A DNA stretch of 35,877 nucleotides from Saprospiraceae bacterium (GTDB lineage: Bacteria; Bacteroidota; Bacteroidia; Chitinophagales; Saprospiraceae), in NCBI GenBank assembly GCA_020629965.1, contig JAHDCG010000033.1:15108-50984 (forward strand), written 5' to 3'. The notes under the pieces were generated by a model, which saw only the letters and a program-made list of their open reading frames with translations, was not told the DNA's origin and did not search any database. Positions 1 through 32,897 of the stretch are shown here, in pieces. Within the stretch, counting starts at the first letter, position 1, and each line of letters starts with the position of its first letter. The translations under genes and the position numbers were made by a program.

Positions 1-714
1 ATGAGTTTCCTAACCGCAGAGTGGCGAAAATTAGCCATGGCAAATTATGTTATCGACCCGCAAATCCTGCAAAAGTATTTGCCGCCGCATACCGAATTGG
101 ATTTTTTCGAGGGCAAGACCTACGTTAGTGTCATCGGATTTATGTTCCTGAAAACCAAGGTTTTAGGCATCGGTTTTCCGTGGCATAAAAACTTTCCCGA
201 GATAAATCTGCGTTTTTACGTGCGCTACAAACACGGCAACGACCTGCGGCGCGGCACGGTTTTTATCAAAGAAATTATCCCCAAGCCTATCATTTCTTTC
301 GTCGCCAATACGCTGTACAAAGAGCATTATCAAACCCTGCCGATGCGACACGGTTGGGATATTTCCGCAGAGAAAATCAAGACGGATTATGCCTTTAAAT
401 TTAAAGGGAAGTGGCACGATATGAGCGTCACCGCCGCGCCGAATTTGGTAGAAATACCCGTCGGCAGCAAAGAAGAATTTATCACCGAGCATTATTTCGG
501 TTACACACCGGCGAGCAAAACGACGACCTACGAGTACGAGGTTACGCACCCGCGTTGGGAGATGTACCCGGTCAGAGATTACAAAATAAACATCGACTTT
601 GCGGCGGTGTACGGGGCGGATTTCGGGTTTTTGGATAGTGCGGCGCCGGACTCGGTTTTGTTGGCGGAGGGTTCTGCGATTACGATTGAGGGTAAAAGAT
701 TGGTGAAAGGTTAG
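1..714 (+). CDS. DUF2071 (YqjF-like) family protein
   Basis: The 237-residue protein matches the DUF2071/COG3361 family in length and layout. It opens with a W-R segment, then a 'LPPHTELDFFEG' stretch near residues 27-38 (the family's 'LPPGLELDxFxG' signature), then 'VSVIGFMF', and later an 'INLRFYVR' strand near 68-75. It ends with the usual beta-rich C-terminus. The family is related to acetoacetate decarboxylase-like folds; its substrate is not established, and I infer none here. The ATG is the first base of the window, so any upstream leader or a longer start cannot be judged. The stop is followed directly by a degenerate GGTNG-type repeat and a strong terminator shared with the convergent gene downstream. 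No operon partner is visible. Confidence 0.85.
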   Translation: MSFLTAEWRKLAMANYVIDPQILQKYLPPHTELDFFEGKTYVSVIGFMFLKTKVLGIGFPWHKNFPEINLRFYVRYKHGNDLRRGTVFIKEIIPKPIISFVANTLYKEHYQTLPMRHGWDISAEKIKTDYAFKFKGKWHDMSVTAAPNLVEIPVGSKEEFITEHYFGYTPASKTTTYEYEVTHPRWEMYPVRDYKINIDFAAVYGADFGFLDSAAPDSVLLAEGSAITIEGKRLVKG

Positions 715-31310: not shown

Positions 31311-32735
31311 CTACAAAAACAACTCCTCCATCGTCACCTCGTTACGCACCAACATATTCGAATACGCATTTTTCTCAACCCCGTAAGTCGTGATAAAAGT
31401 AAGAAAAACGGATTTACGGGTCTTGGTGACCGTTTTAAAAACGGAGATTTTCGAGCGTAATTTTTCTGCATAATCTTTGTCGATGATAAAGTCGCTGAGC
31501 GAAAATTTGCACTCGCAGAGGTTGATAACTTGGTCTCGTCGGTCGATGAGTAAATCGACTTGTGCGCGTTTGGTTTCGGTCGCACCGCGCCAACTCGCGT
31601 TGTTGGATTGTACGCCGCTGATGCCGAGAGCTGCTTTGATTTGTGCGGTATGATTGAGGCAAACCTGCTCGAATGCGTAGCCCTGCCAAGTGCGCTGTAC
31701 CGGGTGGTCGATGAGGTTGAGCCAAGCATTCTCGTCGCGATATTTGCCCGCGTGCAGAAAGCGAAAGTAGAACGCCGTGTAAAAATCCGACAAGCGATAA
31801 GTGATATTTTTTTGCTTTTGGTCGAATGCAGTGTAAGACGTAATAAAGCCGCTTTCTTCCAAATTGAGCAGGACTTTGGTCAGCGTGCCGCCTGATTTTA
31901 TGCCTGCGGCTTTGACGATTTGGCTGCGTTGCAAACCCGCATTGCGAGAAGCTAAGGCTTCGACCACATTTTCGTAAATTTCGTAATTACGAAAGAGCGA
32001 ACGGTAGAGATTGTGAAATTCATTGCGCAGTAAACCGCTTGCATCGAAGAGTAAAGACTGAATATTTTGCGGCACACTCAGGTCGGGCTGCACCGCATCG
32101 AGGTAGTAAGGAATGCCGCCCAAAACCATGTAAAGTTGAATGATTTGGTAATGCTCGAACAGGCAGTTCTTAGACGCTAACAGGGCTTTGGTTTCATTAA
32201 GAGTAAATGGAGTGAGTTTCATCTTGCGGGTGATGCGGTTGTGTAATCCGCCGGTATTATTGATAAGTACATTTATCATCCAAGATGCCGCCGAGCCGCA
32301 AACGACGAGTAAGACATCTTTACGATTAGTCGCCCAACTGTTCCAAAAATGCTCCAAACCCATCATAAAATCGGAACCGGGCGTATCGAACCACGCCAAC
32401 TCATCAAAGAAGATAACGAGTTTTCCGTTTTGCGGTCGGCGCTCCAAAAAGTCTATCAAACGCTGAAAGGCAATCAACCAATTTTTTGACGGTTCACTGA
32501 AATTTTGCGAAGATTGACGCTGCAAAGCTGCATCGAAGTTGAAGAGTTGTTGAGAAGTAGAGGCTTGCGCCAAACCCGAGATTTGAAAGTCGAAAGTGTA
32601 GTCAAAAAATTCTCGAATAAGGAAAGTTTTGCCGACGCGTCGCCGACCGTAAACTGCTAAAAATTCCGATTTACTACTTTCCTGTATTTTGTTCAGCAGT
32701 TCGATTTCCTGCTTTCTTCCGATAATATTACTCAT
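31311..32735 (-). CDS. AAA+ ATPase with DUF234-like nuclease-fold C-terminus
   Basis: 474 residues of the COG1672/DUF234 ATPase group, which is abundant in Bacteroidota and archaea and has no agreed function. Walker A 'GRRRVGKT' is at 30-37 and Walker B 'KLVIFFDELAWF' near 104-115. A sensor-like 'LLVVCGSAASWM' follows. A winged-helix-like middle (about 255-330: 'LQRSQIVKAAGIKSGGTLTK') is typical. The C-terminal part has 'QVDLLIDRRDQVINLCECKF' with D394 and E408-x-K410, the pattern of a PD-(D/E)XK nuclease fold. A glutamate upstream ('ATETKRAQ') could complete the site. The gene stands alone. A perfect palindrome overlaps its likely promoter, which suggests autoregulation. It could be part of a mobile or defence-like module; that is inference. 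Confidence 0.85.
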   Translation of the reverse strand: MSNIIGRKQEIELLNKIQESSKSEFLAVYGRRRVGKTFLIREFFDYTFDFQISGLAQASTSQQLFNFDAALQRQSSQNFSEPSKNWLIAFQRLIDFLERRPQNGKLVIFFDELAWFDTPGSDFMMGLEHFWNSWATNRKDVLLVVCGSAASWMINVLINNTGGLHNRITRKMKLTPFTLNETKALLASKNCLFEHYQIIQLYMVLGGIPYYLDAVQPDLSVPQNIQSLLFDASGLLRNEFHNLYRSLFRNYEIYENVVEALASRNAGLQRSQIVKAAGIKSGGTLTKVLLNLEESGFITSYTAFDQKQKNITYRLSDFYTAFYFRFLHAGKYRDENAWLNLIDHPVQRTWQGYAFEQVCLNHTAQIKAALGISGVQSNNASWRGATETKRAQVDLLIDRRDQVINLCECKFSLSDFIIDKDYAEKLRSKISVFKTVTKTRKSVFLTFITTYGVEKNAYSNMLVRNEVTMEELFL

Positions 32736-32763
32736 GTTGCAGCCGGTTTTACTAAAAAAGAGT

Positions 32764-32803
32764 AAGTTTTGGCTGCAAAGTTAAGAGTTTGCAGCCAAAA
32801 CTT
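32764..32803 (-). promoter_or_regulatory. 16-bp perfect inverted repeat over the ATPase promoter
   Basis: AAGTTTTGGCTGCAAA, an 8-nt spacer, and its exact complement TTTGCAGCCAAAACTT. On the minus strand TAACTTTG (32776-32783) inside the palindrome is a perfect TAnnTTTG -7 box, about 41 nt upstream of the ATPase start codon. ATTG about 21 nt further upstream may be the -33 box. TTTTGGCTG occurs again at 32817-32825 outside the palindrome, and GGCTGCAA (minus strand) close to the start codon. This geometry fits an operator. Confidence 0.7.
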
Positions 32804-32897
32804 GCAATTTATAAAAGGTTTTGGCTGTTGTCTCAATAAAACGTAATCAGGACAAAATTCATCGTAAAGTCCGAAGAATCGTAACCGCCGTCAACCA

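Follow-up and report, generated by a model that had tools for sequence, protein, structure and literature searches.

An array of alternating half-sites over the promoter of a PDC-S27 ATPase-nuclease gene, a probable operator for the protein's own winged helix

Why should a solitary gene for an ATPase-nuclease be preceded by a perfect palindrome that runs into its promoter box? The gene lies on the reverse strand of the window, the whole stretch of 35,877 nucleotides of a Saprospiraceae bacterium that was analysed. An earlier note on this DNA had proposed that the palindrome serves autoregulation by the winged-helix segment of the protein, or is a recognition site for its action or mobility. 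The palindrome itself is real, with perfect arms of 16 bp and a spacer of 8 nt, overlapping the box TAACTTTG about 40 bp before the gene. The spacer contains one half of the box and the start-proximal arm the other; the motif TAnnTTTG is presumably the -7 type promoter box of Bacteroidota. Two further half-sites, absent from the earlier note, were read beyond the arms (32739-32749 and 32818-32828), and the array of the window has four half-sites in alternating orientation, with start-to-start distances of 27, 25 and 27 bp as read from the sequence. Three of the four were scored in the automatic half-site count. The features are:

31311..32735, reverse strand: PDC-S27 gene, encoding a STAND-type ATPase with winged helix and PD-(D/E)XK domain (474 aa; approximate domain limits in the protein, P0001: ATPase 1-250, winged helix 251-318, nuclease domain 345-474)
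31866..31904, reverse strand: codons of residues 278-290, where the recognition helix begins (positions calculated from the start codon at 32735)
31893-31895, reverse strand: codon of residue 281 (S), the proposed specificity residue from comparative tests
32739..32749, forward strand: degenerate half-site beside the ATG, GCAGCCGGTTT, read from the sequence and below the threshold of the automatic count
32764..32779, no strand assigned: gene-near arm of the palindrome, AAGTTTTGGCTGCAAA, half-site core 32766-32776
32776..32783, reverse strand: promoter-type box TAACTTTG, assigned from sequence and from the enrichment of TAnnTTTG in the family
32788..32803, no strand assigned: gene-far arm of the palindrome, TTTGCAGCCAAAACTT, half-site core 32791-32801
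32818..32828, reverse strand: outermost half-site, GTTTTGGCTGT on the forward strand, read from the sequence

Perfect arms reached at most 11 bp when the window was dinucleotide-shuffled 20 times. In the genome of 6.5 Mb the pattern TTGGCTG-N6-30-CAGCCAA has a single site, against two hits per strand for the backward control, and the exact 14-mer is confined to the two arms, with 13 one-mismatch hits versus 20 for the backward control. The search for further palindrome copies, which the earlier note had suggested, yielded none in the genome beyond that of the window. One other perfect 16-bp pair occurs in the window, at 739-775. This inverted repeat has a 5-nt loop and A-/T-rich ends, lies between convergent ORF ends and looks like a two-way terminator.

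The gene stands alone amid core genes; its neighbours encode a PHP/HHH (PolX-like) protein, an ABC ATPase, GatC and YceG, and no separate regulator gene of the CapW/BrxR type was found among them. The protein matched the PADLOC profile PDC-S27 with an E-value of 1.7e-198, residues 1-473 aligning to positions 1-473 of 474. Pfam ATPase_2 scored 57.4 bits, above its cut-off of 33.2, and DUF234 13.0 bits, below its cut-off of 22.5, which three other loci of the same genome reached. The former description as DUF234-type is thus loose. NCBIfam and PHROGs yielded no family for the protein. Sequence hits to TnsC were weak and led nowhere.

In the AlphaFold2 model (pLDDT 92), the ATPase-winged-helix part aligned with 2qen (Z 20.6, rmsd 3.5, 303 residues) and 2fna (Z 20.1, rmsd 3.1, 297 residues), followed by CED-4 (Z 17) and plant NLRs (Z about 16-17). 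Folded on their own (pLDDT 89.5), the last 144 residues matched 2vld (Z 8.9), 1y88 and EndoMS 5gke (both Z 8.4) and then further nucleases; these Z-scores are modest. Foldseek gave an E-value of 3.6e-5 for 1y88. The model thus points to a restriction-endonuclease-like fold at modest Z, and the PD-(D/E)XK-like tail recognized earlier is borne out by its residues as well as by this fold. The catalytic residues were compared in 115 full-length homologues of a first set of 122, seven being left out as broken, cut or short. The ATPase residues K36, T37, D111 and E112 and the nuclease residues Q392, D394, E408 and K410 are invariant in all 115, and E356 is present in 114. Because these residues are unchanged across the homologues, both putative activities seem to be kept under selection.

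PDC-S27 matches were found in 17 of 60 genomes searched, the source genome included, with up to 23 per genome; the full-length close copies share 38-71% identity with P0001. A phylum-wide sample of 158 genomes had a match at E 1e-30 in only six besides the source, and a family sample had one at E 1e-80 in 52 of 150, source included. The first set of 122 genes was obtained from 127 hits, 123 of them distinct, one more being dropped because no start was present. Within the last 150 nt before these genes the best palindrome scored 12.5 on average, against 6.6 for shuffles, 6.7 downstream and 6.8 farther upstream. A score of at least 10 was reached before 87 of the 122; shuffles reached it in 2.2% of cases, downstream stretches in 9 of 119 and far-upstream ones in 12 of 121. 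Among the 115 full-length genes, 88 carry a palindrome above a cut of 9.5 and 27 do not, which counts against the explanation favoured below. A hold-out of 86 new full-length genes (three others were dropped as duplicate, at an edge or without start) had a strong palindrome within 150 bp upstream of the start codon in 76 cases; of the downstream controls, 13 of 85 had one. The closest relatives (L026-L030, 62-71% identity) retain variants of CAGCCAAA/TTTGGCTG; other homologues have palindromes of their own, for example of the TTCCGC, GTTACCGTAG or TAGCTCGCTAAAT types. The expectation that the palindrome would precede orthologues therefore holds for most genes as to its presence, and its sequence varies with the protein outside the closest clade.

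Palindromes also precede homologues on Emticicia and Butyrivibrio plasmids and in a faecal phage scaffold, and stand farther out on a Segatella plasmid. Those of Sinorhizobium, Cetobacterium and Rhodothermus are AT-rich. Eight of 18 plasmid and phage relatives have a palindrome above 9.5 within 150 bp of the start, a count that has no matched control; L265, L269-L271, L274-L276, L278 and L279 lack one there, and in L266, L269, L274 and L276 a palindrome lies farther out. Two of three haloarchaeal relatives are without palindrome, and the third, L282, has only a G+C hairpin 95 bp away. L265 (2489-3952) is a PDC-S27 homologue among head genes in a Wolbachia phage WO record, annotated as an archaeal ATPase fused to DUF234; four copies of CC[GA]CGGTA, 25-31 bp apart, stand before it and fall below the palindrome cut.

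The geometry of the array is shared across the family. In 164 palindrome-bearing genes there are on average 3.4 half-sites per gene (range 1-10), and orientation alternates in 346 of the 353 cases in which neighbouring half-sites are separated by less than 45 bp. Spacing in one sense is 26-28 bp in 159 of 193 pairs and 19-20 bp in 23; in the other sense it is 24-28 bp in 92 and 32-33 bp in 48 of 158 pairs. Neighbours in the same orientation are 50-54 bp apart in 16 of 26 cases, and 27+26 as well as 20+33 sum to 53 bp, about five helical turns. The median distance from the ATG to the last half-site is 17 bp. TAnnTTTG was present in the last 100 bp before 123 of 201 genes; the corresponding figures were 6.7% for shuffles, 18 of 199 for downstream stretches and 8 of 199 for far-upstream ones.

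The array is mostly specific to its gene. In 98.8% of the 164 genes the half-site of the gene is found again two or more times in its own array, versus 13.8% of draws of the arrays of others. When two other operators were searched in eight genomes (about 56 Mb), 20 hits were obtained and none with backward controls; 17 of them adjoin PDC-S27 genes (by blast or position), and the remaining three lie inside a 194-codon ORF (L286), in a terminator-like sequence (L297) and in genome G018 (L295). The last is a solo palindrome (L295 1501-1533, G018:C11:129906-129938), near-identical to the operator of a PDC-S27 gene at G018:C34. No PDC-S27 gene was found near it in the 3-kb locus, and it may be a remnant or a second target. 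Identical 9-mer half-sites occur in five of 455 pairs of within-genome paralogues. Selection for differing operators within a genome was not supported, similarity within and between genomes being about the same at equal protein identity; the one clear drop, among pairs of at least 60% identity (1 of 15 within genomes versus 26% of 261 between), rests on 15 pairs.

When operator similarity was set against protein identity in the first set, the four best windows spanned residues 277-299, containing the recognition helix (283-294 in the AlphaFold2 model), followed by 141-151. Half-sites were aligned without use of protein letters, with relatedness weights only, to approximately [CT][AG]GC[CG][AG]AA[AT]. 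For the variable positions 5 and 6, residue 281 ranked first of 474 columns. The top columns for positions 1, 3 and 7 lie inside 251-318; those for positions 2, 4 and 9 fall outside the winged helix, which counts against the favoured explanation. A rule was fixed before the hold-out: D or E at 281 goes with G at half-site position 5 or 6, and N, S or T with none. Since the widening to 'G at 5 or 6' had followed sight of the first set, the hold-out is the real test of this rule. Among its 76 palindrome-bearing genes of 86, an acidic residue 281 went with G in 24 of 31 and without it in seven, N, S or T went without G in 36 of 42 and with it in six, and other residues with G in none of three (P 5.5e-8). 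Of 28 phylogenetically independent pairs, 18 were concordant, two discordant and eight uninformative (P 0.0004), on a tree made without the winged helix and with first set and hold-out mixed. The first form of the rule, G at position 6, had been concordant in 7 pairs, discordant in 2 and uninformative in 6 (P 0.18). An acidic side chain turned toward the C of a G-C pair would be chemically fitting.

Residue 281 would account for only part of the half-site variation. Residues 141-155 of the ATPase domain track the operator about as strongly as the recognition helix: they ranked first in the hold-out alone, with window 281-291 sixth, and with both sets joined the ATPase domain had a partial correlation of 0.088 with the operator and the winged helix one of 0.085. 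They could be a second DNA contact, or the signal could be leftover relatedness. The earlier suggestion that the winged helix acts on the palindrome has nevertheless gained strong comparative support.

The explanation that we consider probable is that the protein binds its own array through the winged helix and represses its own promoter, as a one-gene nuclease with a built-in switch. Comparison across the family supports self-binding, and autoregulation is suggested because the array sits over the promoter. The STAND-type ATPase-PD-(D/E)XK nuclease would then be its own transcription factor, with protomers occupying the half-sites of alternating orientation that cover the promoter and the DNA upstream of it, and residue 281, just ahead of the recognition helix, would help to read bases 5 and 6. 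An occupied array would block RNA polymerase and keep a costly nuclease scarce, until the promoter was freed by a trigger, by an altered nucleotide state or because the protein became diluted, possibly for antiviral use. Activation rather than repression would fit the same anatomy. The winged helix of NLR-like STAND proteins of similar fold is not known to bind DNA, which counts against self-binding.

A stronger version, unlikely in our estimation, makes the array a 'leash': switch, storage site and sensor at once. Alternating sites, forming a lattice that repeats about every 53 bp, would hold an inactive ATPase-nuclease assembly on its own gene, and stripping of the array by phage takeover, DNA degradation, competing DNA or entry of the gene into a naive cell would both turn the gene on and release the nuclease in active form.

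It is rather improbable that the array is the operator of another, unlinked host regulator and is not bound by the ATPase. Defence genes can have separate regulators; CapW and BrxR are reportedly such genes, controlling defence operons. RptR, according to PMC12255303, is a regulator encoded in a defence operon that binds DNA sites of the promoter. However, the operators of paralogues mostly differ, and one regulator would be needed for each. Moreover, the operator bases track residue 281 of the ATPase itself, and the tested operators are nearly confined to PDC-S27 genes.

We also give little credence to the idea that the nuclease moves a mobile or homing unit, with the array as its end or its target. 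The patchy distribution of the family with its many matches per genome, the copies on plasmids and in the phage WO record and the solo operator copy in G018 would suit such a unit. So would a sister species in which the same neighbours (PolX-like protein 78% and ABC protein 90% identical) have no PDC-S27 gene between them; they enclose an 82-codon ORF, so that gene and array are missing together. That ORF argues against the mobile unit, as it leaves no clean empty site. Also in favour, at least two own-type half-sites occur downstream of 16 of 160 genes, versus 3.9% with mismatched partners. Array-like downstream rows were seen in six (L144, L145, L169, L204, L233 and L234); L204, L169 and L234, and also L144, L145 and L233, are flanked on both sides, because rows of their own type stand past the stop codon too. 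The far side of most genes bears no array, however; downstream of the window gene no half-site copy was found, and matching repeats at both ends were not encountered. No transposase was found among the window neighbours, and copies within a genome are diverged, not recent. As the genome has a single palindrome of this sequence, and neither the window gene nor most relatives are followed by a matching array, a recognition site for the protein's own mobility is not supported.

That the repeats act as RNA, as leader hairpins or as an antitoxin-like RNA restraining the nuclease, is very improbable. Inverted repeats can necessarily fold as RNA, and in type III toxin-antitoxin systems toxin genes are preceded by RNA repeats. 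Of 144 genes, however, 76 have a box at a distance of 15-70 bp from the ATG, and in these 193 half-sites have their centre upstream of the box and 54 downstream, not counting any whose centre falls within it, so that most would be outside the message. The array therefore most likely acts as DNA, as is also indicated by its constant phasing and by its coupling with the recognition helix. A replication-initiator-type site is hardly credible: Orc1/Cdc6 proteins bind inverted origin boxes and their structures resemble the ATPase-winged-helix part (2qby Z 14.3, 1w5t Z 14.0), but 2qen and 2fna (Z 20) and CED-4 (Z 17) match better, and the many chromosomal copies per genome, the nuclease domain and the promoter box within the array argue against it.

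Should self-repression hold, a defence-type effector would double as its own repressor, in one of the more abundant families of predicted defence genes. A gene-specific operator with a partly readable code offers a molecular handle: it supplies a ligand DNA, a residue whose part in specificity can be tested and the basis of a promoter assay. The 164 palindrome-bearing genes represent many naturally diverged protein-operator pairs, potential parts for gene circuits.

We know of no mechanism for PDC-S27. According to PMC12988326, PDC-S27 is an ATPase fused to PD-(D/E)XK, as in the window protein, with 3,503 members counted in archaea and 4,562 in bacteria. The term 'undescribed system' used earlier is thus too strong, the family being already catalogued as a putative defence candidate, with an antiviral function that is suspected at candidate level. 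The main texts of the papers found to name PDC-S27 do not contain 'palindrom' (the name of CRISPR aside) or 'inverted repeat' for this family, and such arrays in this family do not appear in the titles and abstract openings of the open-licence papers found on ATPase_2, STAND proteins, DUF234, COG1672, PDC-S27 or DUF4143. The trait is common to DUF4143 (AAA_14) ATPases, which belong to another Pfam family: in the sample L331-L360 (three of 30 loci dropped, starts taken as the first ATG of the longest ORF) a strong palindrome precedes the start in 18 of 27 and follows the gene in none of 27. It is mostly not shared by PDDEXK_9 ATPases, with 3 of 26 before the start and 0 of 26 downstream (four of 30 loci dropped), most of these loci being from one genome. 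The archaeal STAND-type ATPases 2qen and 2fna have the same ATPase-winged-helix fold, but their alignment stops at residue 326, short of the PDC-S27 nuclease domain, and we know of no operator for them. With CapW, BrxR and RptR the likeness is that promoter sites of a defence operon are bound by a regulator encoded there; these, however, are separate regulator genes, whereas in PDC-S27 the effector itself bears the helix that tracks the operator.
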